Shown here: positions 13,065 through 29,704 of the stretch, piece by piece
How positions within the stretch are numbered: position 1 is the stretch's first letter
Layout: the number at the start of each line of letters is the position of its first letter
Assembly: GCF_900168055.1 (NCBI RefSeq)
Contig: NZ_FUYS01000004.1
Span: 372,001 to 436,000 of the forward strand
Direction of reading: 5' to 3'
Length of the DNA: 64,000 nt
DNA from: Parapedobacter luteus
GTDB taxonomy: Bacteria; Bacteroidota; Bacteroidia; Sphingobacteriales; Sphingobacteriaceae
Position numbers and translations under genes: made by a program
The notes under the pieces: generated by a model
Told to the model about the DNA's origin: nothing
Database searches by the model: none
The model's input: only the letters and a program-made list of their open reading frames with translations

Positions 13065-13083
13065 GCGAAATCGTTTTCGTTGC
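13065..13083. promoter_or_regulatory. operator-like site at the uxaC/exuT junction
   Basis: On the minus strand the site reads GCAACGAAAACGATTTCGC and shares the 11-base core CGAAAACGATT with the operator in front of the GH28 gene (21338-21363). It abuts the uxaC stop codon and is a degenerate member of the pectin-locus operator family. Confidence 0.45.
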
Positions 13084-14498
13084 TAAGCCGAAGTTCCTTC
13101 CCAACCAAAGTACCGATTGGCATTGTGATAGCATATATCCTGAATCATTTGCCCTATCCATTCGATGTCATTCGGTAGTTCGCCGTTCTCGATTTCCGTT
13201 CCAAACAGATCGCATAAAAGCCGTCTAAAATACTCGTGCCTGGGAAACGAAAGGAAGCTCCGTGAGTCCGTCAGCATGCCGACAAAACGACTGATCAGCC
13301 CCATGTTGGAGAGTGCATTCATTTGTTTAATCATCCCATCCTTTTGATCAAGGAACCACCATGCTGATCCAAACTGGATCTTCCCCGCAATAGAGCCATC
13401 GTTGAAGTTGCCAATCATGGTCGCCATCAACTCATTATCGGCGGGATTTAGGTTGTAAAGAATTGTCTTGGCCAGCTGATCACGACTGTCAAGCCGATTC
13501 AAGAATTTCGAAAGCGTCTGGCCCTGGCTAAAATCACCGATGGAATCCCAGCCGGTATCCGGGCCAAGTTTATGCAGCATCCGTGAGTTGTTGTTGCGCA
13601 AAGCACCCAAATGGTATTGCTGTACCCAATTCTTTTCTGCATCCCATTGTCCAAACAACAGCAACAGTGCGGATTTTATTTTCCGGCATTCGCCATTGTC
13701 CAGGGGGGTTCCGTTCAGCGCCTTTCTGAATACGCGATTAACCTCCTCGTCCGTAAAATCGTCACAATAAATTTCCTCAAGGCCATGGTCAGACACCGAA
13801 CAGCCCATATCTGCAAAGAAATCATGGCGTCTCTTAAGAGCCTCCACAAAATCGGCGTACGAGGCAATGGATACTCCTGCCGCTTCCTCCAGCCGGGAGA
13901 CGTACCGTTGGAATTTCGTTAAATCATCCAGGTTCATGGCCATATCAGGGCGGAAAGCGGGCAGAACAGGTATTTCATACCCCTCATCTTTCAACTGCTG
14001 ATGAAAATTGAGCGAATCGACCGGATCATCCGTTGTGCAGATGACCTTGACATTCATTTTGTCCAGCAACCCCCGCACCCGGTACTCGGGCGACTGCAAT
14101 TTTTCGCGGGTCTCGTCATAAATCCGGTCGGCCGTATCCGCATTCAGCAGATCCGTGATCCCAAAATAGCGTTGCAGCTCGAGGTGTGTCCAGTGATACA
14201 GCGGATTCCGCATGGTATAAGGCACAGTCGCCGCCCATTTACGAAATTTCTCCCGGTCGGGTTTATCACCGGTGATATACTGTTCATCCACACCATTCGT
14301 GCGCATCGCCCGCCATTTGTAGTGATCACCATTCAACCATACTTTGGTGATGTTCTCAAACTGGGTGTTTTCGGCAATCTGTTGCGGCGGCAAATGGCAA
14401 TGGTAGTCGATGATGGGCATAGCCGACGCATAGTCGTGATACAGCGTCTGCGCTGTCTTTGTGTTCAACAGAAAGTGCTCGTCTAAAAACTTCTTCAT
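13083..14498 (-). CDS. uxaC: glucuronate/galacturonate isomerase
   Basis: UxaC isomerises D-galacturonate to D-tagaturonate (and glucuronate to fructuronate), the first cytoplasmic step of hexuronate catabolism. The 471-residue protein shows the amidohydrolase-like metal motif DYHCHLPPQQI near residue 32 and the family blocks ICTTDDPVDSL, DMGCSVSDHGLE and GMLTDSRSFLSFPRHEYFRRLLC. Length is normal. It lies 15 bases downstream of uxaA in the run GH28-GH105-uxaB-uxaA-uxaC, so it is probably expressed from the operator-controlled promoter in front of the GH28 gene. Confidence 0.93.
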   Translation of the reverse strand: MKKFLDEHFLLNTKTAQTLYHDYASAMPIIDYHCHLPPQQIAENTQFENITKVWLNGDHYKWRAMRTNGVDEQYITGDKPDREKFRKWAATVPYTMRNPLYHWTHLELQRYFGITDLLNADTADRIYDETREKLQSPEYRVRGLLDKMNVKVICTTDDPVDSLNFHQQLKDEGYEIPVLPAFRPDMAMNLDDLTKFQRYVSRLEEAAGVSIASYADFVEALKRRHDFFADMGCSVSDHGLEEIYCDDFTDEEVNRVFRKALNGTPLDNGECRKIKSALLLLFGQWDAEKNWVQQYHLGALRNNNSRMLHKLGPDTGWDSIGDFSQGQTLSKFLNRLDSRDQLAKTILYNLNPADNELMATMIGNFNDGSIAGKIQFGSAWWFLDQKDGMIKQMNALSNMGLISRFVGMLTDSRSFLSFPRHEYFRRLLCDLFGTEIENGELPNDIEWIGQMIQDICYHNANRYFGWEGTSA

Positions 14499-14513: not shown

Positions 14514-16151
14514 TTATAAAGACACTCCTCGTTTCCAGGGAATAAAATCATCCTGATTAAGTCTTACCGCATGAGGTATCACTTCACCCGAAGCCGCTTT
14601 TATGCAGTATTCAAGAATTTCTTCGCCCATCTCTGCGATGGTTTTTGCGCCATTGATAATCGGCCCGCAATCGATGTCAATGATATCCCCCATACGCTCG
14701 GTCAGCCTACTGTTGGTCGCCACTTTGATCACCGGGCATACGGGATTCCCCGTAGGCGTACCTAATCCGGTTGTAAACAAAATCAGGGTCGCTCCGCTGG
14801 CCGCTTTTCCGGTGGTTGCTTCCACATCGTTACCCGGCGTACATACCAGGTTCAATCCGGGTTTATTTGCCTGTTCGGTATAATCCAATACATCGACGAT
14901 CGGTGATGTGCCGCCCTTTTTGGCGGCACCGTTGCTTTTGATGGCATCGGTGATCAGCCCATCTTTGATATTTCCGGGGGAAGGATTCATATGGAATCCG
15001 GACCCTACCCGCTCTGCTGCCGCTCCATATGCCTGCATCAACGCCATAAACTTACGGGCGGCATGTTCATCAGGCATCCGGTCAAGCAGATTTTGCTCCG
15101 CGCCGCACAGTTCTGGAAACTCCGCCAGCAAGACCGTTCCGCCCAGCGCCACCAGGAGATCGGCACAGTACCCCACGGCCGGATTGGCTGAAATCCCGCT
15201 GAAGCCGTCACTGCCGCCGCACTTCACACCAATAGTCAGTTTATGCAACGGCGCTGGCTGGCGTAACAGCTTATTCGCCTCCACCAGTCCCATAAACGTT
15301 TGGTGGATGGCCGCTGTGATCAATTGTTCTTCGCTAACCGCCTGTTGTTGTTCAAAAATCAAAAGCGGCTTATCAAATGTAGGATTCAATTGTTTAAGGT
15401 CTTCCACGAAGTCACGAACCTGCAAATTCTGGCATCCCAGGCTCAACACCGTAACCCCCGCTACGTTGGGATGGTTGGCATATGCAGCGAGCAGCTTACT
15501 CAACACCGCAGCATCTTGCCGGGTACCACCACATCCGCCTTGGTGGTTAAGGAATTTGATACCATCCACATGCTTGAAAAGCCGGTCCACCGGCACCACC
15601 GATTCCTGTACAGTGAGGTCTACTTCCGATACATCGTTCTGCCGTTCGTACCATTCCCGCAGGATACGCGTCTTGGCTTTGTATTTATCCGTGACCGCAT
15701 ACCCCAGCTCGTTGTGCAACGCCTCGCGTATCACATCCAAGTTTCGGTTTTCACAGAACACCGTTGGTATAAACAGCCAATAGTTGGCCGTGCCCACCCG
15801 GCCGTCGCTCCGATGGTATCCCATGAAAGTACGTTCTGCAAACCGTGACACGTCCGGTGGGTTCCAAACGTATCGGTAAGGATGGTACTCATAGGGCGAA
15901 GTATCGTGTTTTACGTTACCTGTATTCATCCATTGCCCGGTCGTCACCTCATGTTGCGCCCTTCCCACGATGACACCATACATGATGACCGCCTCTCCGG
16001 CGTCCAGCCGTCTGCCAAAAAACTTGTGCTTTGCCGGAATATCTTCCTGCAATGAATACACGGCACCTTCATAGGTCAATCGTGTCCCTTTCTTTAAATC
16101 TTGCAACGCTACCAGCACATTATCCTGCGGATGCACTTTCAATACCTGCAC
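14514..16151 (-). CDS. uxaA: altronate dehydratase
   Basis: UxaA dehydrates D-altronate to 2-keto-3-deoxygluconate. The 545-residue protein has the N-terminal SAF-like domain (MQVLKVHPQDNVLVALQDLKKGTRL, about residues 1-95) and the large C-terminal UxaA domain with DGRVGTANYW, HQGGCGGTRQDA, LGCQNLQ and GVKCGGSDGFSGISANPAVG, which carry the conserved Cys and Asp residues of this iron-dependent family. The start codon is GTG at 16151, three bases after the uxaB stop. No upstream ATG is possible because an in-frame TGA lies two codons before it. It is part of the tightly packed uxaB-uxaA-uxaC group. Confidence 0.93.
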   Translation of the reverse strand: MQVLKVHPQDNVLVALQDLKKGTRLTYEGAVYSLQEDIPAKHKFFGRRLDAGEAVIMYGVIVGRAQHEVTTGQWMNTGNVKHDTSPYEYHPYRYVWNPPDVSRFAERTFMGYHRSDGRVGTANYWLFIPTVFCENRNLDVIREALHNELGYAVTDKYKAKTRILREWYERQNDVSEVDLTVQESVVPVDRLFKHVDGIKFLNHQGGCGGTRQDAAVLSKLLAAYANHPNVAGVTVLSLGCQNLQVRDFVEDLKQLNPTFDKPLLIFEQQQAVSEEQLITAAIHQTFMGLVEANKLLRQPAPLHKLTIGVKCGGSDGFSGISANPAVGYCADLLVALGGTVLLAEFPELCGAEQNLLDRMPDEHAARKFMALMQAYGAAAERVGSGFHMNPSPGNIKDGLITDAIKSNGAAKKGGTSPIVDVLDYTEQANKPGLNLVCTPGNDVEATTGKAASGATLILFTTGLGTPTGNPVCPVIKVATNSRLTERMGDIIDIDCGPIINGAKTIAEMGEEILEYCIKAASGEVIPHAVRLNQDDFIPWKRGVSL

Positions 16152-16154
16152 TGC

Positions 16155-17630
16155 TCACTTATTTTGTAGTTTCAACTCCATTTCTTCATTCAGTTCTTGT
16201 ATCACGTCTAGCGCATTTTTTTGCTGGAGTTGTACCAGAAAGTACCTGATCTCATCAGCAAGCCCCGGCAAACCATTCAGATCCATGCCCCACCGGTCTT
16301 CGTTGCGCAGCACCTCAACGACCAATTCTTCTCCATCGACCGTGCTCCACAAGCCGGCCAACCAGCCTGCGTGCTCATCGGCAACCTGGTGGGTTCCTTG
16401 CATGAAATACAGGTAGGCGGCAAAACCCAATGCCATGCATCGCGGTACGGCGCGGTTCTTGCGTATAAACCGTTCCAAGGACGCCACATTACGCATCTGC
16501 ATCTTCGACGTGTAGTTTAAGCTGATACTTTGCCAAGCATGATCCAGGAAAGGATTTGCAAAACGATCCATGACGTTCGCTGCAAAGTCAAGTGCCTCCG
16601 CCTCCGAAATCCCGTTGCCAATTATTGTGTCGGCTATCTCCCTGAACATCAACCGCCGCACATACCGTGCAAACCCATCATGCTGCATGGCAACTTTAAC
16701 TGTACTAAAGCCGCAAAGGACGGCCAGTCCGCACGAGAACGTATGGCTTCCGTTTAATAGGCGCAGTTTGAGTTCTTTGAATTTGCTGATGTCCGGAGTA
16801 ATGATCATTCCCTCATCCCCTTGGGCGAAAGCGAGCCGGTCGTGTACGCGATCATTATTCGACTCGATCGCCCAGAGCCGGAATGGCTCGGCCATGATTG
16901 CCAACGCATCACGATAGCCCAGTTGCTTTTCTGCTTCTTCCGCCTCATTCTCCGGCAATTTTCCCGGTACGATGCGGTCGACCAATGTGTTGCAAAAATC
17001 GTTAGCTTCCACTATCCAACGAGCAAACTCGTCTCCCAATCCGTGCCGGCGGGCCAACTCCAATACAATCGACTTCAATGTGGCTCCATTGTCACTGATC
17101 AGTTCGGTCGGCAATATCACCCACCCTTTGTCTGGGTCGCCATTGAAATGCACAAAACGGCGATAAAGCAACGCGGTAAGTCTACCCGGAAAAGACGATG
17201 GCGGCGCAGCCCGGGGATCGTCTTGATCATCCAATACAATCCCCACCTCGGTCGTGTTGGAAATGACGATCGAAATATCTGGATGTTCCGCAATCTGAGC
17301 AATCGTCTCCCACTGCGTTGCTGCATGCAAGACCCTGCTGATAGCAGACACCAGCAGGGTTTCGCGCACCTCTTTACCGTTTTGCAGCCCGTTGGTATGT
17401 AGCGTATACAGCCCGTCCTGCCGAGCAAATTCGTCGGTACCGCCTTGTCCGGTTGATTTTACCACTACGATCCGTCCGTTGAATATCCGCTGCCGGTTCG
17501 CTTTTTCAATAAAATAGTCGGGCAACCCGCGGAGCAGCACCCCGGTTCCAAATTGCAAGACCTTCTCCGGGAGTTCCTCCGTCGCGCCGGTTTGCAATAA
17601 ATCCTTATTCAATGTTTTCATTACTTGCAT
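16155..17630 (-). CDS. uxaB: tagaturonate reductase
   Basis: UxaB reduces D-tagaturonate to D-altronate with NADH. The 491-residue protein belongs to the mannitol dehydrogenase/UxaB family. It has an N-terminal Rossmann fold (VLQFGTGVLLRGLPDYFIEKAN), a central SDNGATLKSIVLELA segment and the C-terminal catalytic block FKELKLRLLNGSHTFSCGLAVLCG, which contains the conserved Lys and Asn/His residues. The ATG at 17630 shares one base with the stop of the GH105 gene (TAATG), a coupling overlap. Internal ATG 17621 is an alternative start. UxuB-type fructuronate reductases are related, but the pairing with UxaA and UxaC favours UxaB. Confidence 0.9.
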   Translation of the reverse strand: MQVMKTLNKDLLQTGATEELPEKVLQFGTGVLLRGLPDYFIEKANRQRIFNGRIVVVKSTGQGGTDEFARQDGLYTLHTNGLQNGKEVRETLLVSAISRVLHAATQWETIAQIAEHPDISIVISNTTEVGIVLDDQDDPRAAPPSSFPGRLTALLYRRFVHFNGDPDKGWVILPTELISDNGATLKSIVLELARRHGLGDEFARWIVEANDFCNTLVDRIVPGKLPENEAEEAEKQLGYRDALAIMAEPFRLWAIESNNDRVHDRLAFAQGDEGMIITPDISKFKELKLRLLNGSHTFSCGLAVLCGFSTVKVAMQHDGFARYVRRLMFREIADTIIGNGISEAEALDFAANVMDRFANPFLDHAWQSISLNYTSKMQMRNVASLERFIRKNRAVPRCMALGFAAYLYFMQGTHQVADEHAGWLAGLWSTVDGEELVVEVLRNEDRWGMDLNGLPGLADEIRYFLVQLQQKNALDVIQELNEEMELKLQNK

Positions 17631-19600
17631 TATTTTCTCCTTGCTTTTGCTAGCAACCACTGCACCCATGCATCCGCCGCCTCGTAGTTTTCAAAATCCG
17701 GGGGCAGCTTACGTCCATCTATGTACTCATTGTATATCCACGGGTCACCTAGTGCAAAAACCGTCCCTTTGCCATATTTGGCCGTAGCCATGAGGTGTTT
17801 TCCCTCCTTTTGGACGAGTGACCGCGCGGGCGGTGTAAGCTCCAGGGTACTGACCTCTTTGAGGAAAAGCCTATAAGGTTTTTTAAAGACGCTGTTCCCT
17901 TTTTTAAGTTGAACGGCTCCCTCCGGGAAGTGGTCGTTTTTTACCAACAGCGCATTGTCTTCGTTAAAGCGGATACCGAACCGCCCGGCCAGTTGATTGA
18001 AATGTGCAAATTCCGCGTTGCCGGCATCATTACCCAAAAGGACCAATACACCACCCTGCCGTACCCATTCGGTTATCACGTCGATTTCAGGGCGTTCCAG
18101 AAAATTTGGCGAGTTTGTCTCTTTTTCCGTATCCGGATCGACGATGATGTAAACATCGGCATTACCCAATGTCGCTACCCCAGGTTTCGTCTCCAATGAT
18201 GCCGTCCTTACCCCATAGCGGTTGAAGAGGTGTCCCAGAAACGAATAGCCGCTGTTCGACTGATCTTCCCATACGTAATGATAACGTACCTGCCGGCCGG
18301 TCACGTCCACACGGTACTCATTATTGTAATAATAGTCTAGAACCACCGTCTTACCTTTCGCTCGCCCCAGTGTGGGCAACAGCTCCATCTCAGCTGCACA
18401 TTTGATAAATGCACCCATCCCCTTCGGGTCGTTCTGAATCACCGGCTCGCTCATGTAATACGCAAAGCTACCGTCGCGATAACGGCCCGAGCCCCCAAGG
18501 CCAGACACCGCCACCGTACGTTCGAGATTGATGCCGCCATCGTCACGACCGGAGATAAATGTCTTCAAGATGCCGCTGTACCCTTTCTGCGCCTGTTTGA
18601 TATAGCCTTCCGGCAGGTAGCCCAGGCGTACGCCTTTGGCCAGCGTATATACCAGCATGCAGGAAGCCGACGCTTCGAGGTAATTCTCAGGGCGATGTGC
18701 CATGTCGACCACATCATACCACACACCCGAACGTTTATCCTGAAACGCAATCACCGCCTTTGCAAACCGCTGAAGGATCCCTGCCAACGAATCCACGCCG
18801 GGGTGGTCTTCGGGGAAATGCTCGATAGCATCAACCAGGGCCATCCCGAACCAGCCCAACGAGCGCCCCCAAAAGTTCGGAGACCGGCCAGTAGCCTTGT
18901 CTGCCCAGGCTTGTTCCCTCGATTCGTCCCATCCATGGTACAACAGGCCGGTCTCGTCGTCGCGGCTATGGCGTTCCATCAACACAAACTGATTAGTGAT
19001 ATCGTCAAATGCATCCCGCTCATTAAATAATTTGGCATACTCGGCAAAAAAGGGCTGCCCCATATAAAGGCCATCCAGCCACATCTGGTGTGGATAGATT
19101 TTCTTGTGCCAAAATCCGCCCTCGGATGTCCTTGGATGCGTACGCAATTGATCCCGCAGCAGGGAGGCTGCATTGTAATACTTCGCCTTTCCTGTCACCT
19201 GATACAAAAGCAGGAGCAGCTTACCATTGTTGATGAAATCGATGTTGTAGTCTTCCCGCTTGTAGGCTTTGATGGTTCCATCGTCTTGCACGTAGTGATC
19301 CATCTGCTGTTGGATATAAGCAAACCACCGGGCATCGCCGGAGCCCTTCCACACCGCTTCCACACCTTTGAGGATTACCCCCAAATCATAACTCCATTTT
19401 GCCGGCGTACCTGGTTTTCCCAAACTGAATGAGTCGGGCCACAGTTTCATGGCGGTCTCCGCCATCCGCTCGCTGTATTTCTCCGGCTGTGCCCCTGCCC
19501 AGCCTACGGCACCAAACACTAAACCACACACCAAGACAGGTTTCAAAGCTGCTTTCCGCAGCACAAACTTTATCAGCTCATTATTCAGATTTAACTTCAT
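17630..19600 (-). CDS. GH105 unsaturated (rhamno)galacturonyl hydrolase with C-terminal extension
   Basis: This 656-residue enzyme probably releases the unsaturated uronate left at the non-reducing end by pectin lyases. Residues 1-37 form a signal peptide (cleavage near WAGAQ). The alpha/alpha-barrel of the YteR/YesR (GH88/GH105) type follows, with Asp in NIDFINNGKLLLLL near residue 122 and the catalytic-type HQMWLDGLYMGQPF near 175. A further 250-odd residues (about 400-656) form a second alpha/beta domain with VYIIVDPDTEKE and WVRQGGVLVLLGNDAG, resembling DUF4350/GATase-like modules that are not needed for GH105 activity. It sits three bases after the GH28 gene and overlaps uxaB by one base. 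Whether it prefers homogalacturonan or rhamnogalacturonan products is not evident. Confidence 0.85.
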   Translation of the reverse strand: MKLNLNNELIKFVLRKAALKPVLVCGLVFGAVGWAGAQPEKYSERMAETAMKLWPDSFSLGKPGTPAKWSYDLGVILKGVEAVWKGSGDARWFAYIQQQMDHYVQDDGTIKAYKREDYNIDFINNGKLLLLLYQVTGKAKYYNAASLLRDQLRTHPRTSEGGFWHKKIYPHQMWLDGLYMGQPFFAEYAKLFNERDAFDDITNQFVLMERHSRDDETGLLYHGWDESREQAWADKATGRSPNFWGRSLGWFGMALVDAIEHFPEDHPGVDSLAGILQRFAKAVIAFQDKRSGVWYDVVDMAHRPENYLEASASCMLVYTLAKGVRLGYLPEGYIKQAQKGYSGILKTFISGRDDGGINLERTVAVSGLGGSGRYRDGSFAYYMSEPVIQNDPKGMGAFIKCAAEMELLPTLGRAKGKTVVLDYYYNNEYRVDVTGRQVRYHYVWEDQSNSGYSFLGHLFNRYGVRTASLETKPGVATLGNADVYIIVDPDTEKETNSPNFLERPEIDVITEWVRQGGVLVLLGNDAGNAEFAHFNQLAGRFGIRFNEDNALLVKNDHFPEGAVQLKKGNSVFKKPYRLFLKEVSTLELTPPARSLVQKEGKHLMATAKYGKGTVFALGDPWIYNEYIDGRKLPPDFENYEAADAWVQWLLAKARRK

Positions 19601-19603
19601 CGG

Positions 19604-21274
19604 TTAGTTCATTTTTACAGCCGTTTCCGCGGCACCATGGTCAGCCTGCAGCGGTTTTTCGGCCAAGGATGTATCGATATTATGCAGTACCACGCCTTTG
19701 CTCCGCTCACCCTGCACATGGAGCAACGTTTTCACACGCCCGCCGTAACGCAGTGCATCGAACACGACGTCTCTACCATTAAGCACATAGGCCAACGGCT
19801 CATCTGAGGTGGTTTCCACTACCGATTCGGTAACCGTGATCGCTGCGCCCTCCTGAATGTCGATTCCCGCTGCCGTCTTCATGCGCAAGCCCGACAAGTG
19901 GATCCCCCGTATGGGCATCTCGGGTAGCCCGCGTATGAACACCGCCTTCTTAGCCCCCTCGCAATGGATGTTGGCAATGTAGAAGTTACGGAATTGCGGT
20001 GTCTCTTCAGACACAGGCAGCGTTTCCGCTTTCGGCGGCTGGCGAACCTCTCCTGCAGCGGGAATGGGATCCTTCGCCTCGTAATACATGTCAAACAGGA
20101 TCGCCTCCCCCGGGATGTCCTTCATGTATATGTCCCGGATATAGACATCTTCCACCACTCCGCCCCGGCCGCGAGTGGTTTTAAAGCGCAAGCCTATGTC
20201 TGTACCAATAAACGTTAAGCCGGAAACATAGAGGTTGCGCGCCCCTCCACTCATTTCACTGCCTACCACAAAACCACCGTGCGCATGGAAAACCGTACAG
20301 TTGCGCACCCATAAATTTTCCGTAGGCATCCCCAACTGCCGCCCGTGTGTGCCTTTCCCGCTCTTTACACAGATGGCGTCATCGCCGACGTCGAACGAAC
20401 TCCCCTCTACCAGCACATTGGTACAGGACTCGATGTCCAATCCGTCGCCATTTTGCGAATACCACGGATTGCGCACGGTAATATTGCGGATTGTGACATC
20501 CCGGCTCATCAGCGGATGGATGTTCCATGCTCCGGAGTTTTGGAAGGTCACCCCTTCCAGTAAAATCCGCTCACAACGTTCCAATACCACAAGGTTCGGT
20601 CTCAGGAAATCCGCTATCTCTTCAAAGAACGTCTTGGTCTTATCCGGCGTAATCAGGCCGGCATCTTGGTATTGCCGTCCCTTCAGCGCACTTTCTGAGG
20701 GGTACCATTCCTTGCCGTCCGGGGTAACCACGCCGCCGGATGCGACAAGGTTTTTCCATTGGGAGTCCGTCATCTTTGCTTTTTTCACGTAGCGCCATGC
20801 ATCGCCGTTTCCATCAATTACCCCTTCACCGGTTATGCCAATATTTTGCTGTCCCTCAGCACGGATGGGCGAGTGCCGGCGTACTTGGGGCAATCCCTCC
20901 CACCAGGTTTCAATCAGCGGGTAATCGTTGAAATCACGCGAAAACTGCAAAAGTGCATGGCGCGACAAGTGCAGGTTTACGCCGCTTCTCAGCGACAAGG
21001 GCCCCGAGCTCCACACCCCTTCGGGGATCAACACAACGCCGCCGCCCTGCCCGTGGCAAGCATCGATGGCCGATTGGATGGCCGCCGTGCTGACAAATCC
21101 CGGGGCATCAGACGCACCGAAGCCCCGTATATCAAAGGTATCCGTTTTAAACACCGGCAAGCGGACATCCGGCTCCGGCCAGGTGTCCTGACCGCAGACA
21201 ACGGATATTGTTCCGCTTACCAAGCAAACCGCCACAACGGTCATCCATCCTATTTTTTTCATGTTCTTTCGCAT
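19604..21274 (-). CDS. GH28 polygalacturonase-family glycoside hydrolase
   Basis: The secreted right-handed beta-helix enzyme has 556 residues. A signal peptide (about 1-28, ending near VVCGQ) is followed by the GH28 start FDIRGFGASDAPGFVSTAAIQSAIDAC. The catalytic region carries NGDGLDIESCTNV and GDDAICVKSG (three acidic residues of the inverting mechanism), then HGGFVVGSEMSGG and RFKTTRGRGG (substrate-binding His and Arg/Lys). Family members hydrolyse alpha-1,4-galacturonan, often as exo-enzymes in Bacteroidota, or act on rhamnogalacturonan; endo/exo mode cannot be told here. It is first in an operon with GH105, uxaB, uxaA and uxaC, and an operator lies 64 bases before the start. Confidence 0.9.
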   Translation of the reverse strand: MRKNMKKIGWMTVVAVCLVSGTISVVCGQDTWPEPDVRLPVFKTDTFDIRGFGASDAPGFVSTAAIQSAIDACHGQGGGVVLIPEGVWSSGPLSLRSGVNLHLSRHALLQFSRDFNDYPLIETWWEGLPQVRRHSPIRAEGQQNIGITGEGVIDGNGDAWRYVKKAKMTDSQWKNLVASGGVVTPDGKEWYPSESALKGRQYQDAGLITPDKTKTFFEEIADFLRPNLVVLERCERILLEGVTFQNSGAWNIHPLMSRDVTIRNITVRNPWYSQNGDGLDIESCTNVLVEGSSFDVGDDAICVKSGKGTHGRQLGMPTENLWVRNCTVFHAHGGFVVGSEMSGGARNLYVSGLTFIGTDIGLRFKTTRGRGGVVEDVYIRDIYMKDIPGEAILFDMYYEAKDPIPAAGEVRQPPKAETLPVSEETPQFRNFYIANIHCEGAKKAVFIRGLPEMPIRGIHLSGLRMKTAAGIDIQEGAAITVTESVVETTSDEPLAYVLNGRDVVFDALRYGGRVKTLLHVQGERSKGVVLHNIDTSLAEKPLQADHGAAETAVKMN

Positions 21275-21377: not shown

Positions 21378-22139
21378 CTAACGCTTGAAGTGCGCCGCCA
21401 ACGCTGGCAGGCAACGCTTCATCTCAGCCACTGCCAGGTCGCAGATTTTAAAAGCGCCTGTGCCAGAGAGATGTGTATCATCCTCCGCGCCGTTCGGCAA
21501 CGCCTCGTACTGCCCCGGCATCAGGTGCAGGAACAGTGCCTTTGAACGCTCAGGCCCCCACTCCAGCAGCAGCTCCCGGGTTTGCGCATGCATGTCGAGC
21601 AACGCCACGCCTGTTTCACTTGCCACATTCCGCACAACCTCCGGATAGGCCCCGTGTGTTTCCTCGAGGTATCCCCGGACATCAAACTTACGGCGCATGA
21701 TTGGTGTCGACAGTACCGGGATTCCGCCGCGCTCCCGCGTCTCCGCGATGTATCGTTTCAGCTGACGCGGAAATTCGACCTCCGGATCCGCATAGCGCTC
21801 CGGACTGTTTTCCTTCTGGTCATTGTGTCCGAACGCGATGACGACATAATCGCCGCGCTGTACCCGTGCCTTCACCTTATCCCAGTGCCCTTCGTTGCGA
21901 AAACTCTTGGTACTCCGGCCGTTCAGCGCATGGTTTTCCACCCGCACCCCTTCGTCAAAATACAGGGGCAATACCTGCCCCCACCCTTTCTCGGGATTGC
22001 TTGCGCGGTACGGCTTATTGGCCACGGTTGAGTCGCCGACGAGAAATACAGTTACCTCCCGTTGACCAGCCCATAGGAAAGCTAAGAATAAGCCGGCGCA
22101 TGGCATCACTATCCATTTCGCCAATCGTTGTATCATCAT
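21378..22139 (-). CDS. CE12-type rhamnogalacturonan acetylesterase (SGNH hydrolase)
   Basis: The 253-residue secreted GDSL/SGNH esterase should remove acetyl groups from pectin, freeing the backbone for GH28 and lyases. After a short signal peptide (about 1-25) it shows block I VFLVGDSTVA (nucleophile Ser), block II LNGRSTKSF, block III AFGHNDQKE with the oxyanion Asn, and block V DDTHLSGTGA with the catalytic Asp/His. These match the RhgT/YesT rhamnogalacturonan acetylesterases of CE12. It is 10 bases downstream of the Gfo/Idh gene and likely the last gene of the CE8-SusC-SusD-Gfo/Idh-CE12 run. Two adjacent ATGs (22139, 22136) are equivalent starts. Confidence 0.87.
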   Translation of the reverse strand: MMIQRLAKWIVMPCAGLFLAFLWAGQREVTVFLVGDSTVANKPYRASNPEKGWGQVLPLYFDEGVRVENHALNGRSTKSFRNEGHWDKVKARVQRGDYVVIAFGHNDQKENSPERYADPEVEFPRQLKRYIAETRERGGIPVLSTPIMRRKFDVRGYLEETHGAYPEVVRNVASETGVALLDMHAQTRELLLEWGPERSKALFLHLMPGQYEALPNGAEDDTHLSGTGAFKICDLAVAEMKRCLPALAAHFKR

Positions 22140-22149
22140 TCAACTAACG

Positions 22150-23550
22150 TTAGGCCATGCGTTTGGGCATAGGCTTCAAGTCCGTCAACGAAGCGATCTT
22201 CACCGGCGCGCCGGTTTCAATACTTTTCCTGGCAGCTACGCCGATCAAAATGGACATCGCCCCATCCCGCACACCTGCCGCGTGGCCATAGGGATCAGGC
22301 GCATGCTTGTCCTTGAAGATCTTATCATGCAACCGCCGGTCTCCGCCTCCATGCCCACTCCGTTCGCTGGCAACCTGGATCACCTTGTAGTCGGACCAGC
22401 TTTTATAGAGCACGAGCGGTTCGTGTATCATATCCTCATTTTTCGACTGCTCCATTTCCGCGGCGTGCAGGCTTTCCTGATCCAGCTCGTCGTTTTTCAT
22501 CCAAGGGATATCCAGCCACGCTTCGATCCGCCCTTTATGCCCATTGAACGCGATACGCCACCCTTCAAATGGCGAATATGTCGTGAGCGAATAATTAGCT
22601 ACCACATTGTTGGCGTATTTAATTTGTGCAGACATCTTATCATAAATATCAATCTCATGCCTATATACGCAGCCATCGCGGATATAGCCGTCGTGTTCCT
22701 CATTTTCCACATACAGCTTCATACTATGGCTGTCCTTGGTGATATCCCAATAGTACACACACTCCTGCTTATGGGGGCAACTGCGGCAGCTTTTGCCGCG
22801 GAAAGGGCCGTTGCTTCCGTAATGTTCGAGCGCCCCATAAGCAAAGACTTCCTCCGGTTCAGCATCAAGCCACCAATTCAACAAGTCGAAATGATGTGTG
22901 GCTTTGTGTATCCACAGCGAGCCGCCACTGTTCATTAAGCCGTGCCAGCGCCTGAAATAGGAAGCCCCATGGTGCACGTTCAGATACCAGTTGAAGTCTA
23001 CCGACGTGATATCTCCGATCTCCTCCTGCTGGAGCAATTCCTTAATTTTCGTCATGTAGGGACTCCACCGGTAGTTGAAACCGACAATTAGGTTCTTGCC
23101 ATACTTGCGTTCGGCATCCAGGATAGCTTGGGCCTTCACTTCATCAGTAGTAAGCGGTTTCTCGGTCAAGACGTCGCAGCCAGCAGCTAGCCCCTTGATG
23201 ATAAACTCATGGTGCGTCGAGTCTTTCGTACACACGATAATGAGGTCCGGTTTTACTTGCTGTACCATCTCATCAAAATCGACAAACGTGGGGCAGTTTA
23301 CCCCCATGTATGTCTTGGCGTAGGCAAGCCGGCCCGGATTGATATCGCTGAGCCCGACGAACTCCAGCAAATCCGGATATTGCTCCACCAGCCTTTTGCC
23401 CCAAAATGAAATGCCGCGCACCCCCGTGCCGACCAGCACCACCCGGAGCCGGCGCTGCATGCCGAAGGCGGTACCAGGCATGCTGACTGCCGTCCCAGCT
23501 GCCAGCATGCTCAACGCATACAAAAAGTCTCTTCTTGAAAAAGTTGTCAT
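22150..23550 (-). CDS. Tat-exported Gfo/Idh/MocA-family oxidoreductase
   Basis: The 466-residue NAD(P)-dependent oxidoreductase carries a twin-arginine signal (TTFSRRDFLYALSMLAAG), so it should be exported already folded with its cofactor. The Rossmann motif VVLVGTGVRG is followed by VCTKDSTH and the family EKP motif (VLTEKPLTT). The catalytic-type segment is KATHHFDLLNWWL. A Cys cluster (CRSCPHKQEC near residue 240, another Cys in DGCVYRHE) may bind metal. I chose ATG 23550 because it starts the Tat signal; the frame extends to 23715 inside susD. Its substrate is unknown. Some exported family members act as NAD-dependent glycosidases (GH109) or make 3-keto sugars, so a role on pectic oligosaccharides is possible but unproven. 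Confidence 0.82.
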   Translation of the reverse strand: MTTFSRRDFLYALSMLAAGTAVSMPGTAFGMQRRLRVVLVGTGVRGISFWGKRLVEQYPDLLEFVGLSDINPGRLAYAKTYMGVNCPTFVDFDEMVQQVKPDLIIVCTKDSTHHEFIIKGLAAGCDVLTEKPLTTDEVKAQAILDAERKYGKNLIVGFNYRWSPYMTKIKELLQQEEIGDITSVDFNWYLNVHHGASYFRRWHGLMNSGGSLWIHKATHHFDLLNWWLDAEPEEVFAYGALEHYGSNGPFRGKSCRSCPHKQECVYYWDITKDSHSMKLYVENEEHDGYIRDGCVYRHEIDIYDKMSAQIKYANNVVANYSLTTYSPFEGWRIAFNGHKGRIEAWLDIPWMKNDELDQESLHAAEMEQSKNEDMIHEPLVLYKSWSDYKVIQVASERSGHGGGDRRLHDKIFKDKHAPDPYGHAAGVRDGAMSILIGVAARKSIETGAPVKIASLTDLKPMPKRMA

Positions 23551-23563
23551 ATTTAGTTGTTGT

Positions 23564-25246
23564 TTAGTTCTGGTATCCAGGATTCTGGGTGATATCAGCC
23601 TCGTTGATGTCGATTGCAGTTTGTGGGATAGGCCGGTAGATTTTGTCCTGTCCATCCACCCCGCGGAACGCATTATCGACCCCCACTCGTCTGATATCAT
23701 AGTTATAGGCCCCACAGAATTCCTTCAATTTCCCCGTCCGCCTCAGCTCGGGCCACCGAAGGTACTCGCCCGCAAACTCTTTGGCGCTTTCTATGAGGTA
23801 GGCATCCAAGGCCTCGCTTTGGCCCGAGGCGGCGGCAATTGACTGACTGGGCAGCAACGTCCCTCCATCCTTCGCATTGCCGGGCCGGTTAAGCACTGAT
23901 TGCACATATTGTGCCGCCGTAGCGAAATCATTCAGCCCGATACACGCCTCCGCGTACAGGAAGTAAGTCTCCGCGGTGCGGGCAAGCACGATATCCCTCA
24001 CGCTGGCCTGCGTGTTAAACACATGGCGTGTTGACGGACTATCAAATTTTTTAATGACCGGCGAATTCATATCAATCTGATAAGCCGCCCGGTATGCTTC
24101 TTCGTTATATTTGAAGGGATAATACCTGAAATTGCTGGCGATTTGGTGTTCCCGTCCCGCCACCCAGTCCAACGAATCAGCGGTCGTGTATTCGCGCCCC
24201 CAAACCCTGGGGTAGTATGCACGAATCAATAGTTCATCTTTATTTTTGTTGTTGTCATAGTAATCGAAATACTGGTCGTAAATCGTCAGCATGAAAGTCG
24301 CCTCATAGCGGGCATCGTTTTCACCGAAAAAGGTGTGCAAGCTCCACGAGGGCATAAATGCCGAGTTCATGTATTTATGGTTCAATTCCGGACCGCCAAG
24401 GTATGGACCAAAGAGAGATTGCTGGTCGTTGCCATCTGTTGGGCTGGCAATGGATTCGCTGTCATATTGCACGGCAAAAATGACTTCCTCGTTATTTTCA
24501 TTTGTAGGACTCCACAATTGGTCGAAAGGAATGGAAATCGTGTAACCAGCTATAGCTGCTTCGGCATATACCTTGGCACGCTCGAAATCAGTGGTTTGCC
24601 CCAGATCCCAGCCCCGGGTGAGGTATGCCTTGGCCAGGTAGTGGTTCGCCGCCGTTTTATTCGCCCGTGTGCGATCGTCCGGCAAGTCGGGCAGCGCGGC
24701 TTCCAGCTCGGCAATCACAAATTGGTAAGCATCGGCCAGCGAAGCCCTCGGCAGATTCATGCGTGGCCCCTCCAGGGTAGGCTCGTCGTTGATGATGATG
24801 CCCCCAAACTGCTCAATCAACAAAAAGTGGTAGAACGCCCGCAAAAAGCGAAGTTCGGCCCTCCACATGGCCCTCTTGGTCTCATCCGTTTCGACCAACG
24901 CGTTGTAGTACAATCCGATATTAGTGGTCTGTATGGCGTTATAGCAATTCCGATAAAAGGTCAACACGTCGCCATTGTCCGCAAAAAGTTGCGTATACTC
25001 CATCAGCGCCCGGTTTTCGAACCCCCTGTTCATCTGATACATGTCGGTACCCGCCAATAGCAGCCACGGCGTGGTCCTGAATGTCGTCCGCAACGAACTG
25101 TAAGAAGCGGTCACAAGGGTTTCGTACCCCGTCTCCATGCGATAAAACTCCTCGTTCGTTATTCCACCCAAGTTGTCCTCTTCCAAGAACTTTGTACACC
25201 CCGTGGCGACCAACAAACACAGGATAACCAAACTGAACTTATTCAT
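23564..25246 (-). CDS. SusD/RagB-family glycan-binding lipoprotein
   Basis: This 560-residue outer-membrane lipoprotein is the surface lid of the SusCD importer. The signal peptide ends in LLVATGC (lipidated C17). The SusD N-terminal motif FLEEDNLGGITNEEFYRMETGYETLVTASYSSLR follows, then TPR-like helices (AELRFLRAFYHFLLIEQFGG) and the C-terminal SusD signature (TYFLYAEACIGLNDFATAAQYVQSVLNRPG, EFAGEYLRWPELRRTGKL). The end YRPIPQTAIDINEADITQNPGY is the usual SusD tail. It lies 14 bases after the susC gene and just before the Tat oxidoreductase gene. Ligand specificity for pectin oligomers is inferred from context. Confidence 0.95.
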   Translation of the reverse strand: MNKFSLVILCLLVATGCTKFLEEDNLGGITNEEFYRMETGYETLVTASYSSLRTTFRTTPWLLLAGTDMYQMNRGFENRALMEYTQLFADNGDVLTFYRNCYNAIQTTNIGLYYNALVETDETKRAMWRAELRFLRAFYHFLLIEQFGGIIINDEPTLEGPRMNLPRASLADAYQFVIAELEAALPDLPDDRTRANKTAANHYLAKAYLTRGWDLGQTTDFERAKVYAEAAIAGYTISIPFDQLWSPTNENNEEVIFAVQYDSESIASPTDGNDQQSLFGPYLGGPELNHKYMNSAFMPSWSLHTFFGENDARYEATFMLTIYDQYFDYYDNNKNKDELLIRAYYPRVWGREYTTADSLDWVAGREHQIASNFRYYPFKYNEEAYRAAYQIDMNSPVIKKFDSPSTRHVFNTQASVRDIVLARTAETYFLYAEACIGLNDFATAAQYVQSVLNRPGNAKDGGTLLPSQSIAAASGQSEALDAYLIESAKEFAGEYLRWPELRRTGKLKEFCGAYNYDIRRVGVDNAFRGVDGQDKIYRPIPQTAIDINEADITQNPGYQN

Positions 25247-25260
25247 AATTTCTATCCAAA

Positions 25261-28200
25261 TTAAAACCTAACATTTACGCCCAATTGGTACGTGATATTA
25301 CTCGGGCCGTTCCCGCTGGCCAGCGCTGTAGTGGCATATTCCGGATCCCACCCCTCATAGTTCGTAAAGGTAAAGGGATTGAGCACGTTTGCATAAATCC
25401 GGAACTGCGACATGCCCCATTTTGAAATCACGTTTTGCGGCAATGAATAACCCAAAATAATGTTGCGCACCTTTACGAACGATGCATCAGTGTACCGTCC
25501 GTTGCCGCCATAATACGGTCCCTTATTCTGCGGGTGCGGATATTGTGCGGCTTCATTGCCGGTTCCGCTGTCTCCCCATACTGCTTGGGGGCGGCCATCG
25601 GCATGCGTACCCCAGTTATTCCAATCGTATCGCGGAACGGCCGGCGGTATGTAATAGTCGTAGCGGATCTTCGGCCGGCCCCGCTGTACGTTATCCGGGC
25701 CGAATTCTTCCAGAAACCGATCATTTACAAACACACCTTGTCGCGTATAGAGGTTAAAAGAAAAATCCCAGTTACGGTACCGGAGGTTTGACGTAAAGCT
25801 ACCAAACCACGTTGGATCTGGCGATCCCAGTATCACCCGATCGGCGGGAGTAATCGCACCATCGCCGTCCGTATCATCAGCTATCGCCTGTCCAGGCTGT
25901 TGCCCCCAGGCGGTAGCTTCCGCCAATTGGTCCATCCGCCAGAGCCCGATGATCCGGTAATCGTAGATGACATTGATTGGCTGTCCGATAAACCGAGCCT
26001 CACCCACCACATCTTCTGCCCGGCCATACAGGGTACGAATAGCATTCTTATTCCGGGAAAACATCAACGATGTGGTCCATTCCCAATCGGTGGTACGCAC
26101 GTTTGTGGAGTTGAGTGCCACCTCCACGCCCCGGTTATTTACCGAACCGATGTTGTCAATCATCCACGGCACGCCAGACTCAACCGTCAAGGTCCGTTGC
26201 ATCAGCAGCCCATCGGACAATTTATCATACCAATCCACGCTCCCACTCAGCCGGTTATTGAATAAGCCAAAATCCAATCCAACATTTATTTCACGCGTCT
26301 TTTCCCAGGTTATTGACTGGTTTACGGGTCTTCCGGGCGCAAAACCTGTCACCGCCCCGCTTCCATAGTCATACCACACTAAGGCGTCGGTTTCAGGTGT
26401 TTGTTGGGAACCGAAGGCACTGATGCCGTTGTTGTTACCCGAATAACCGAAACTGAACCGTGCTTTTAAATCGCTCAGAAAATTGGCCCGCTGCATAAAA
26501 TCTTCTTCCGAAATGCGCCAGGCTAGTGCGGCCGAGGGAAACGCCTCCCATTTATCCCGCAGCTTAGAGCTGCCGTCATAGCGGACCGTAGCGGTAAGCA
26601 GGTACTTGCCCTTCAGGTCGTAATTGGCCCTTGCGGCATACGACAGCAATGTCGTTTCACTATAGGCCGTATTCGAACTCCCGGGCATGAAATTACCGCT
26701 AAAAAGGTTGTACCACCAAGAGCGGTATGGCAAGTCGTTTGCGGCTGCCTGTATGCGCTCGAAACGGGTCTTGTAAGCACTCTGGATGAGTGACACGTTC
26801 AGGCGATGGTCCTCATTGAACTGCTTGTCATAGTTAATAACGTTGTCCCACGTCCATTCGAAAGCTTCTGTGTTCGACTGGTAAGCATAGTCTTGGTTGC
26901 GTTGGCCCAACACCACCCCATAGTACCGGCCATCTCTCGTCCGGTTAAATCGTGGCAGGAATGTACTCCTGATGGAGAGATTTTCCATGGGCCGCAATTC
27001 TGCAAAAATGCTGCCCAGAAAATCATATTGCCGCACCTCCTGCGTGCCGCTGTTGATTTCGTTGAGCGGATTAGGCGAGCTGGTGAAGTTACCGGTGCCC
27101 TGAATGGACTCCGCAATGCCGGGTTGGTCAATCAAGTTTCCTTGGTCATCGTAGGCATACAAGATGGGCGGCATCCGCAGGATATCACGGTAGCCGGTTT
27201 CACTTCCATAATTGTTTACTCCATGCACCAGGTTTACGCTGGCACCGGCTGAAAAATAATCCGATGTCCTGTGCTCCACGGCAAGCTTCAAAGTGTAGCG
27301 GTTAAGGTCTTCGCGCACGAAGTTTCCCTCCTCATTCTGGTATCCCACGCCAAGGTTATAATTCATCTTTTCCGAGCCTCCTGCAATGCCGATGTAGTGG
27401 TTTTGTTGCTGTCCGGACCGCGTACCCAAATCGAGCCAATCCTCATATTGCTCATTATACAACCTGCTTTCCAGCAGCGGGCTGTTTTGAAGAATCGCTT
27501 GCGGCGTTGCCAATACATAGCGCCCGTCTTCGAACGTATAATAAGCCGAGGTCCGGAAATCCACCCATTCCCTGCCATCCATGAAATCGGGAATTCTTGC
27601 CAGCTGCCGAATACCATAAAAACCATCATAGGTGACCGTCGTCCGTTCGGCGCCGGGTGTTCCCGCATTTTTCGTCCGTACGATGACGACGCCGTTTGAA
27701 CCCCTTGAGCCATAAATCGCTGTAGAAGAAGCGTCCTTCAAAATATCGATCTGCTCGATATCCGCCGGGTTCAGAAAATCAATATTCGATGTCACCACGC
27801 CATCGACCACGTACAGCGGATTCCCGGCCTGCAAGGAGTTCTGCCCACGGATCTGGATGCTGAAGCTTCCACCGGGACGAACCGAATTGCTGCTGATATC
27901 CACACCGGCCACCGTTCCCTGAAGTGCCCCCATGACCGATGTAGTGCCTCGCGCCACGAGGTCGTCGGCGCTCACGGTTCCGACAGAACCGGTCAGATCC
28001 CCTTTACGCACCGTTCCATACCCCACAGCCACCACTTCGTCCAACATCGCCGCTTCATCTTCCTCCATCACGACGATCACCTGCTGTTGCTGTCCGACGG
28101 ACACCTGCTGTTCTTTGAATCCAATGAAGCGGAGCTGGATCCGTACGTCGCCCGTTGCGGGTATCGCTAAGCTGAACGTTCCATCTTCCCCCGAGCTCGT

Positions 28201-28350
28201 GCCTTGCGTGGTCCCTACGATGGCGACACTCACCCCCGACAGCGGCATACCGTCGCTATCCGTGACCCGCCCGCTAATTTGCCTGGTTTGGGCGGCCAAA
28301 TAGGCTTTCCCGCACACCACCAGCAAAATCATTAACACTAATTTACGCAT
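25261..28350 (-). CDS. SusC/RagA-family TonB-dependent transporter
   Basis: This 1029-residue outer-membrane transporter works with SusD to import oligosaccharides using TonB energy. Domains in order: signal peptide (1-20), a carboxypeptidase-regulatory-like domain (ISGRVTDSDGMPLSGVSVAIVGTTQGTSS, about 24-95), the TonB-box region (MLDEVVAVGYGTVRKGDLTGSV), the plug domain (VDGVVTSNIDFLNPADIEQIDILKDASSTAIYGSRGSNGVVIV) and a 22-strand barrel ending in ITYQLGVNVRF with the terminal Phe typical of BamA substrates. Length and order are canonical. It lies 60 bases downstream of the pectin methylesterase gene and probably shares its transcript. No anti-sigma/ECF pair or hybrid two-component gene is present, so control is likely by the LacI protein. 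Confidence 0.96.
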   Translation of the reverse strand: MRKLVLMILLVVCGKAYLAAQTRQISGRVTDSDGMPLSGVSVAIVGTTQGTSSGEDGTFSLAIPATGDVRIQLRFIGFKEQQVSVGQQQQVIVVMEEDEAAMLDEVVAVGYGTVRKGDLTGSVGTVSADDLVARGTTSVMGALQGTVAGVDISSNSVRPGGSFSIQIRGQNSLQAGNPLYVVDGVVTSNIDFLNPADIEQIDILKDASSTAIYGSRGSNGVVIVRTKNAGTPGAERTTVTYDGFYGIRQLARIPDFMDGREWVDFRTSAYYTFEDGRYVLATPQAILQNSPLLESRLYNEQYEDWLDLGTRSGQQQNHYIGIAGGSEKMNYNLGVGYQNEEGNFVREDLNRYTLKLAVEHRTSDYFSAGASVNLVHGVNNYGSETGYRDILRMPPILYAYDDQGNLIDQPGIAESIQGTGNFTSSPNPLNEINSGTQEVRQYDFLGSIFAELRPMENLSIRSTFLPRFNRTRDGRYYGVVLGQRNQDYAYQSNTEAFEWTWDNVINYDKQFNEDHRLNVSLIQSAYKTRFERIQAAANDLPYRSWWYNLFSGNFMPGSSNTAYSETTLLSYAARANYDLKGKYLLTATVRYDGSSKLRDKWEAFPSAALAWRISEEDFMQRANFLSDLKARFSFGYSGNNNGISAFGSQQTPETDALVWYDYGSGAVTGFAPGRPVNQSITWEKTREINVGLDFGLFNNRLSGSVDWYDKLSDGLLMQRTLTVESGVPWMIDNIGSVNNRGVEVALNSTNVRTTDWEWTTSLMFSRNKNAIRTLYGRAEDVVGEARFIGQPINVIYDYRIIGLWRMDQLAEATAWGQQPGQAIADDTDGDGAITPADRVILGSPDPTWFGSFTSNLRYRNWDFSFNLYTRQGVFVNDRFLEEFGPDNVQRGRPKIRYDYYIPPAVPRYDWNNWGTHADGRPQAVWGDSGTGNEAAQYPHPQNKGPYYGGNGRYTDASFVKVRNIILGYSLPQNVISKWGMSQFRIYANVLNPFTFTNYEGWDPEYATTALASGNGPSNITYQLGVNVRF

Positions 28351-28410: not shown

Positions 28411-29379
28411 TCATGGTTCATCAGGACTCCATCCATCCAATATCCGTTCTTCCGTATAATATTCAGCTTGTGCGGCGGTCAGCTCATGCGCCCAGGATAC
28501 GCGCCTTCCCCGTAGCGCCCCTTCCCCGTGGTTGTTGTACTCGGCATAGCCGGCCGTCTGCTCATTGCTCGCCTTCCCCCAGTTATGCCAGCCTTCCGGC
28601 CGAATCTGCTCGCTCATGCGGCAATCCATGAAGACGGTTTTTGCATACGGGCGCCAAGGCCGCCCCAGGTAAGTAGATTGTGGAGGGGCTTCGCCGCCAA
28701 CGATGCAGTTTTTAAACACAAAACCGTATGGAACGGTATCTGGCGTAGAGGCTGCTGTCATGTACGATCCACCCGGTTTGCAGTGGATCTCGCACGATTG
28801 GAAGAGCGCGGTTGCCGCACCGAAAATAAAATCGGTTGTCCCTTCGATGTAACAGTCCTTGTAGTACTGCCTGCTCCCGTCTAACTGCGGATAAAGCGTA
28901 TCCTGGTGTCCCAAAAAGCGGCATCTGTTAAAAAACACCCGATCTGCACTCACGCGGACGGCTACTGCCTGCCCCACCGGCCCTGCGCTGTTTTCAAATG
29001 TGATGTTTTCCGCATAAAATCCATCGCCAAAAACGAAGAACGAAGAGGAACCCGATGTGCCCATAGCTTCACCGAACCGGTTTTTTTTGCTGGCGTAATC
29101 ATCATATGTGAGTATCGTCGTGCGCGCATCTTCGCCAATGAACGAAACATTCGTCTTTGAATCAGGCAAAACCAGCTTTTCCTTGTAAACACCGGGTTTT
29201 ATGCGGATGACGGTACGCACACTGCGCATATCCGGAACCGCCATGATAGCCTCCTGCACGGTGCTGTAATTGCCAGTACCGTCCTGTGCCACCACCAACT
29301 CGCCCGTTTGTCCAAACAGCGCCAGGCAAACGGAAAGCAAGAACCAAACCGGGAAGACGCGATACTTCAAAATCAACAT
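28411..29379 (-). CDS. CE8 pectinesterase (pectin methylesterase)
   Basis: The 322-residue secreted pectin methylesterase demethylates homogalacturonan. A signal peptide (MLILKYRVFPVWFLLSVCLALFG) precedes the beta-helix, which starts VVAQDGTGNYSTVQEAI. Catalytic motifs are all present: RFLGHQDTLYPQ (acid/base Asp), EGTTDFIFGAATALF (nucleophile Asp) and YLGRPWRPYAKTVF (conserved Arg/Trp). I chose ATG 29379 at the signal peptide; longer frames to 29433 or 29475 add residues with no signal-like start. It is the first gene of the CE8-susC-susD-Gfo/Idh-CE12 run, downstream of the operator at 29506. Confidence 0.92.
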   Translation of the reverse strand: MLILKYRVFPVWFLLSVCLALFGQTGELVVAQDGTGNYSTVQEAIMAVPDMRSVRTVIRIKPGVYKEKLVLPDSKTNVSFIGEDARTTILTYDDYASKKNRFGEAMGTSGSSSFFVFGDGFYAENITFENSAGPVGQAVAVRVSADRVFFNRCRFLGHQDTLYPQLDGSRQYYKDCYIEGTTDFIFGAATALFQSCEIHCKPGGSYMTAASTPDTVPYGFVFKNCIVGGEAPPQSTYLGRPWRPYAKTVFMDCRMSEQIRPEGWHNWGKASNEQTAGYAEYNNHGEGALRGRRVSWAHELTAAQAEYYTEERILDGWSPDEP

Positions 29380-29704
29380 GGTCACCTGTGTGATAGATTC
29401 AACTAATTGGTATAATCGGGTACGTTTAAACATGGCCCGATATCGTAAGCGCAAGTATAAGGGGAATCCAGCCAAAACAACGACTGTCGGGCCGGATAAA
29501 ATTACGCAAACGATACCGATATCGTTTGCAGACAGATCCGTAGGGTCTCCGGATGAATTCGGTAACGATTGCGTAGTTATTTCTGTATCGGAGCTTCCGA
29601 ATATTCCATAAACTGCCTATCCTTGTGTCGCACATCGACGCCCGAACGGGTGTCTGCCGTGGCTCAAAACTGATTTTCAGACCTATCAATTGCTTATCAA
29701 TAAT
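29380..29704. promoter_or_regulatory. divergent control region between CE8 and GH43 genes
   Basis: This 325-base gene-free stretch contains one full operator (29506-29529) and two half-sites in the + orientation: CCGATATCGTAAGCG at 29437 and CGGTAACGATTGCG at 29560. A GTTTAAAC palindrome lies at 29424. No TAnnTTTG match with proper spacing was found for either divergent gene, so promoters here must be weak or of another class. No small ORF with coding features was seen. Confidence 0.55.
29506..29529. promoter_or_regulatory. 24-bp LacI-type operator between CE8 and GH43
   Basis: Halves GCAAACGATACC and GATATCGTTTGC are reverse complements at 11 of 12 positions. The arms and CCG centre match the perfect palindrome beside the LacI gene at 33818-33843. 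It is placed to control both divergent transcripts. Confidence 0.7.

Follow-up and report, generated by a model that had tools for sequence, protein, structure and literature searches.

The Gfo/Idh gene within a pectin SusCD operon of Parapedobacter luteus encodes a protein that, on the sequences compared here, belongs to an unnamed and uncharacterised multi-phylum group of the Gfo/Idh/MocA superfamily, marked by an HKxTHHFD-type motif and a four-cysteine site. The whole reading favoured here, with a probability of about 0.4, is that of an oxidoreductase loaded with NAD that acts on plant-wall oligosaccharides in the compartment of the GH88/GH105 enzymes and is exported in Bacteroidota, with cysteines that would hold a structural zinc; it is a reading in which we infer the export, cofactor, metal, substrate and reaction of the family Gfo.

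The window is the whole 64,000-nucleotide stretch of P. luteus DNA that was analysed. The start of the Gfo/Idh gene at 23550 and its stop at 22150 are borne out: the ATG at 23550 gives MTTFSRRDFL, and the longer frame begins at a GTG (23715) further upstream, within susD. The susD stop is separated by 13 nt from the Gfo/Idh gene, and the latter by 10 nt from the GDSL/CE12-type esterase gene, after which GH28, GH105, UxaB, UxaA, UxaC and MFS genes follow on the same strand (Table 1). GH43 and PL10-type pectate lyase genes lie nearby on the opposite strand. Judged by its genes, the locus is complete from galacturonan to galacturonate. An earlier note, made from the sequence alone, had placed the gene directly between susD and the CE12-type esterase gene in a pectin operon, and the reading frame, Pfam and the surrounding SusC, SusD, CE8, CE12, GH28, GH105 and UxaABC genes confirm this. 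Separately, an esterase gene (BD-FAE; 32411-33673, minus strand) whose product has an N-terminal CarboxypepD_reg-like domain is convergent with the PL10-type pectate lyase gene.

Table 1. Genes of the pectin operon and sites of the Gfo/Idh protein, in window coordinates.
Feature	Position	Strand	Basis
CE8-type pectinesterase, start codon uncertain	28411..29475	-	Pfam
SusC	25261..28350	-	Pfam Plug, CarboxypepD_reg
SusD	23564..25246	-	Pfam
Gfo/Idh/MocA oxidoreductase, 466 aa	22150..23550	-	Pfam and reading frame
Tat-type signal region, residues 1-31, SRRDFL then hydrophobic stretch	23458..23550	-	sequence
GxGxxG dinucleotide-binding loop, residues 41-46	23413..23430	-	sequence, family alignment
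D69, end of predicted strand 2	23344..23346	-	107/107 rows with a residue there; model strand 62-68
EKP motif, K131	23155..23163	-	K in 107/107 rows with a residue there
HKATHHFD, residues 215-222, family signature, predicted active site	22885..22908	-	family alignment
Cys cluster C255-x2-C258-x5-C264	22759..22788	-	family alignment
C294, fourth Cys of predicted metal site	22669..22671	-	family alignment
GDSL esterase, CE12 type	21378..22139	-	Pfam; PaeY-like part below NCBIfam cut-off
GH28	19604..21274	-	Pfam
GH88/GH105 unsaturated uronyl hydrolase type, with signal peptide	17630..19600	-	Pfam, N-terminus
Tagaturonate reductase (UxaB)	16155..17669	-	NCBIfam 541 bits, cut-off 359
Altronate dehydratase type (UxaA)	14514..16151	-	galactarate dehydratase model 282 bits, under its cut-off
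Glucuronate isomerase (UxaC)	13083..14498	-	NCBIfam 647 bits, cut-off 387
MFS transporter, hexuronate/galactonate type	11586..12962	-	NCBIfam, under cut-off

The family was delimited with an alignment of 108 rows, comprising the window protein, the best 80 of 585 relatives (the orthologue loci, 66-89% identity), 12 further Bacteroidota-type sequences and 15 plasmid sequences, with the fragment L190 excluded. In a sample of the phylum, 45 of 395 genomes gave a match at 1e-30, and 38 of 395, the window genome included, scored over 400 bits. A plasmid search added full-length relatives (35-47% identity) from rhizobia, Rhodobacterales, Paenibacillus and actinomycetes, whose matches begin at residue 48 or later, past the signal. 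A literature search, in which subscription journals were thinly covered, returned no paper on an HKxTHHFD/four-Cys family. A MAG titled Oceanospirillales also has a family copy (L092, 381-1757), which groups with Bacteroidota rows (L061, L057, L058); it is the only carrier among the 274 genomes of the class sample around it, and its grouping with other lineages points to transfer or misbinning.

The link of the family to pectin was surveyed with GH28, GH88/105, CE8, CE12, PL10, UxaABC and KduI as pectin/uronate markers. These genes occur at 12 of the 80 orthologue loci (best 80 of 585; 1.43 Mb), compared with none of 40 random 20-kb stretches (0.80 Mb, from 11 gene-carrying genomes and unmatched for region; p 0.008). 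DUF1080 (3-keto-disaccharide hydrolase) genes were found at 11 of the same best 80 of 585 loci and in 0/40 stretches (p 0.015). The PL10 labels were not trusted, because the PL10 profile also picked up CE8 proteins, and each PL10-labelled locus has another pectin label too; the GH109_C profile was abandoned, as it had come to match Gfo proteins in general. The window operon recurs in P. composti (L029), plus an extra FG-GAP protein. Further pectin-marked loci are L079, L058, L062 and L065, the last with Gfo, GH43, GH28, cupin and DUF1080 genes, and a locus outside the 80 (L174) combines GH28, rhamnogalacturonan-lyase-like, GH29, Gfo and GH127 genes in one row. On a quick tree with several open forks, the pectin/GH88 label requires 10 parsimony changes, so that, as read from these sequences, the association arose repeatedly in separate lineages. 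As for the extra gene of P. composti, it encodes an FG-GAP repeat protein (L029, 7757-9982) located between SusD and Gfo, and is absent from the window.

A possible but doubtful alternative is a general exported sugar/polyol oxidoreductase, similar to glucose-fructose oxidoreductase, with no special tie to pectin and captured by a pectin operon in one Parapedobacter lineage. No pectin marker was found at 68 of the best 80 of 585 loci, by which a strictly pectin-specific family is ruled out; many orthologues follow secA, lie near panC-linked genes or stand alone, and 20 of 79 loci are a single gene under a 180-nt rule. The nearest relatives of the window gene beyond its own operon type (P. soli, Sphingobacterium) are outside pectin loci, the rows sister to the pair that it forms with L029 are likewise non-pectin, and 24 of 37 carrier genomes in the phylum sample lack a GH88/105 match at 1e-30. 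Against this alternative, pectin genes and DUF1080 genes are over-represented around the family, and the link recurs in separate lineages. Moreover, within the same order, carriers are richer in GH28 copies, with a median of 5 (23 carriers) versus 2 (37 non-carriers; p 0.001), a difference confounded by genus, and within one genus the comparison of 13 with 5 genomes gave p 0.03. GH28 presence differed less in the order sample (21/23 carriers versus 29/37 non-carriers, p 0.29), and the phylum sample gave 16/37 carriers versus 9/42 non-carriers for GH28 (p 0.05) and 13/37 versus 7/42 for GH88/105 (p 0.07). These genome-level signals are weak, and the genomes have common ancestry. The survey thus supports the earlier note in part, its observation being right and its interpretation half right: the pectin association is real and recurrent, not general.

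The identity of the protein was stated correctly in that note, both Pfam domains being above cut-off: GFO_IDH_MocA at residues 35-158 (5.8e-20, 72.6 bits, cut-off 24) and GFO_IDH_MocA_C at residues 170-452 (2.2e-25, 90.2 bits, cut-off 22.9). By these matches the window protein is a two-domain member of the Gfo/Idh/MocA superfamily. No NCBIfam equivalog model passed its cut-off for it; the inositol 2-dehydrogenase model IolG (TIGR04380) gave 88.5 bits, under its cut-off of 355. From D69 we infer NAD rather than NADP as the probable cofactor. The EKP lysine (K131) and the downstream active-site histidine (H219, 108/108) are both present, as in the superfamily, and H215, K216, H219, H220 and D222 are invariant in 108/108 rows of the family alignment. 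The usual superfamily aspartate is replaced by H215, which pairs in the PDB sequence alignment with the Asp that precedes the active-site His of 3ezy; we take this Asp, known from inositol dehydrogenase, to be catalytic.

The AlphaFold2 model, built with 46 orthologues (mean pLDDT 78.6, pTM 0.80), is structurally closest to NAD-dependent sulfoquinovosidases (8qc2, 8qc3, 8qc8), with which it shares the two-domain Gfo/Idh fold over 343-349 residues at Z about 31-32. The best match is 8qc8 (Z 31.9, rmsd 3.7, 346 residues aligned), followed by 8qc3 (Z 31.8, rmsd 3.5, 343 residues). These enzymes, presumably GH188, carry out NAD-bound glycoside chemistry, which is a likeness to the role proposed here, whereas the window protein is only about 20% identical to them and the sequence alignment stops short of the Cys insertion. 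It is therefore conceivable, though unlikely, that the protein is an NAD-dependent glycosidase of GH109/GH188 type, with net hydrolysis of one pectin side-chain linkage, for which the periplasm would be suited as a site of redox-neutral chemistry; two of the orthologue loci contain a GH109_C protein as well. However, the structural ranking is nearly level with many non-glycosidases: WlbA, YjhC and others come close behind at Z about 30, so that the fold identifies the superfamily and not the reaction. Moreover, GH109 (6t2b) has the Gfo/Idh fold in common but is a weak PDB sequence match (9.4e-5), and its C-terminal domain (Glyco_hydro_109_C, PF21252) has no match in the window protein at E 0.001. 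Membership of GH109, to which the earlier note had pointed, is thereby ruled out. The same applies to its other suggestion, a known 3-keto-sugar dehydrogenase, since the Bacteroides glycoside 3-dehydrogenase model BT_2158_fam (NF058561) scores 34.2 bits, far from its cut-off of 750; this Gfo/Idh family aligns from residue 5, so its N-terminal extension is similar. The BT_2159 family gave 21.6 bits (cut-off 650).

The SRRDFL N-terminus had been read as a Tat signal, and this holds up: R6 is present in 95 of 96 close rows (partly duplicates of one another), TatC is encoded in the P. luteus genome, and the twin-arginine motif is followed by a hydrophobic stretch, which makes Tat export of the window protein plausible. 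A Tat-like N-terminus is found in 91 of 93 Bacteroidota-type rows, the two exceptions being a match without an N-terminus (L068) and a frame extended upstream, with RRKFL further in (L100). The loose Tat pattern also matches 5 of 15 plasmid rows, but these are not read as signals, since the arginines stand directly before the Rossmann strand or inside the glycine loop. Export as a remarkable trait was dismissed, because 13 of the 26 other Gfo/Idh proteins of the genome also have Tat-like N-termini, and it is the Cys cluster, rather than export, that distinguishes the window protein. The R6 and N-terminal counts argue against a cytoplasmic enzyme of galacturonate/deoxyuronate catabolism whose N-terminus would not be a working Tat signal; such a role, to which UxaABC in the operon and the KduI/KduD, altronate dehydratase or KdgR of some alphaproteobacterial relatives would be congenial, is very unlikely.

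The earlier note had also pointed to CRSCPHKQEC (residues 255-264) as lying outside the core fold, which agrees with the PDB sequence search, where no relative's best-scoring stretch covers the Cys region and all end by about residue 248. It had overlooked a fourth cysteine, C294, that goes with the cluster. Of 108 family rows, 104 have all four, and the remaining rows (L187, L189, L240, L242), a single clade with local support of 99, have none, therefore pointing to a single loss; of the four cysteines, the fragment L190, outside the 108 rows, retains C255 alone. In the sister group, which has A215 and D220, the four cysteines are kept with C-x3-C spacing. This all-or-none pattern, together with the retention in the sister group, indicates that the cluster is old and acts as one site. 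It is, by this sequence evidence, a hallmark of the multi-phylum family and not an addition to the window protein alone, so that its reading as an oddity of this protein is ruled out. No Cys cluster was found in the 26 other Gfo/Idh proteins of the genome (two of them very weak family-profile matches). The all-or-none pattern fits one structural metal site, and the four cysteines most likely hold a structural zinc, as a predicted site. Regarding the structure prediction that had been suggested for a metal site, the behaviour of the cysteines as a set stands, whereas the model places the Cys region at a block mean pLDDT of about 56-79. An iron-sulphur cluster or redox relay taking electrons from bound NADH would suit four cysteines kept or lost together, an exported enzyme in need of an electron exit and a relative whose neighbourhood includes an ApbE flavin transferase gene (L176), but is improbable in view of the same Cys set in cytoplasmic relatives and the sister group and its absence from one clade. 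In L176 (6893-11577, minus strand), the family Gfo, a second Gfo, the ApbE gene and a third Gfo form one row, a possible periplasmic electron exit.

The alphaproteobacterial relatives show two gene-context patterns; for nine plasmid regions without annotation, genes were labelled by ORF comparison. In the first pattern (Sinorhizobium, Pararhizobium, Phyllobacterium), the family Gfo accompanies mandelate-racemase-type and sugar-isomerase-type genes, with a divergent ABC importer; Sinorhizobium and Phyllobacterium additionally have genes labelled as DHDPS-type and as a second Gfo. The row of Gfo2, DHDPS-type, mandelate-racemase-type, sugar-isomerase-type and family Gfo genes, next to the divergent importer, is seen in L185 (4309-10239), L236, L243 and partly L235; this five-gene set looks like a sugar-acid pathway. 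In the second pattern (L188, L191, L237, L238, L239, L241), genes for an ABC importer are found upstream, sharing the strand of the Gfo gene in five of six, with GH88 labelled in L191 and L239 and KdgR in L188, L191, L239 and L241. Alloyangia (L189) has GH88, KduI and KduD near the family Gfo. Three Gfo/Idh-type genes lie close together and adjoin importer genes in L238, L239 and L241 (at about 8.9-12.7 kb), where the second of L239 and L241 gave no Pfam Rossmann-domain match at 1e-6.

In Alloyangia, Roseicitreum and Rhizobium (L189, L191, L239), the GH88-fold gene close to Gfo encodes a protein that matches the NCBIfam model 'beta-galactosidase BglB' at 516-527 bits (cut-off 420), whereas the window GH105 reaches 107 bits, far under that cut-off. 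Judged by N-terminal hydropathy only, GH88 and Gfo are without a signal in alphaproteobacteria, and GH105 and Gfo carry one in Bacteroidota. These contexts suggest that the family Gfo may be cytoplasmic in alphaproteobacteria and Bacillota, beside ABC importers, in some alphaproteobacteria with a cytoplasmic GH88-fold enzyme.

In the favoured reading of an NAD-loaded oxidoreductase, the Tat-type signal implies that the Bacteroidota protein would reach its folded, NAD(H)-bound state in the cytoplasm and then work in the periplasm beside exported GH105 and GH28. There it would oxidise a ring hydroxyl on the terminal sugar of a plant-wall oligosaccharide, after which either re-reduction would follow bond cleavage, giving net hydrolysis, or the keto-sugar would be passed to a partner. 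The periplasm has no NAD pool, so a redox-neutral cycle or an acceptor would be needed. The reaction is placed at the oligosaccharide level because the location of the Gfo tracks GH88/GH105 rather than the cytoplasmic route for monomers (UxaABC, KduI/D). By description only, it can be likened to YteT of the B. subtilis rhamnogalacturonan operon, presumably a Gfo-type gene beside a GH105 gene.

A more specific version is quite unlikely, namely that the family provides the oxidising half of a redox route that has so far gone unrecognised, in which the Gfo would make the keto-sugar end and a GH88/GH105-fold enzyme of the same compartment would complete the cleavage, the window operon being the exported version. 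The chemistry of the GH88/GH105 fold is the hydration of an unsaturated sugar; BglB activity would be odd for this fold unless the substrate were oxidised first, and the BglB matches count towards this version. The favoured reading itself has precedents. In the part of PMC9007349 drawn on here, periplasmic use of 3-keto-glycosides with DUF1080 was proposed from Caulobacter fitness data and extended to Pedobacter. Furthermore, as far as the cited part of PMC10628242 goes, an Agrobacterium operon for oxidation, elimination, hydration and reduction contains a Gfo protein; it resembles the present proposal as redox-assisted deglycosylation with such a protein, likened by function only, but there the Gfo takes the last, reducing step, unlike the oxidising role proposed here.

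If the favoured reading is true, Bacteroidota would break down pectin not only with hydrolases, lyases and esterases but also with an exported redox enzyme that carries its own cofactor, and a function would be gained for a family that about one in ten of the sampled Bacteroidota genomes contains. In alphaproteobacteria, one enzyme family would then cooperate with GH88/GH105-fold enzymes within the cell, and in Bacteroidota the same pairing would operate outside it. Relatives of the protein are often situated beside genes for digesting plant-wall sugars, which suggests that redox chemistry may assist bacteria in cutting these glycans.
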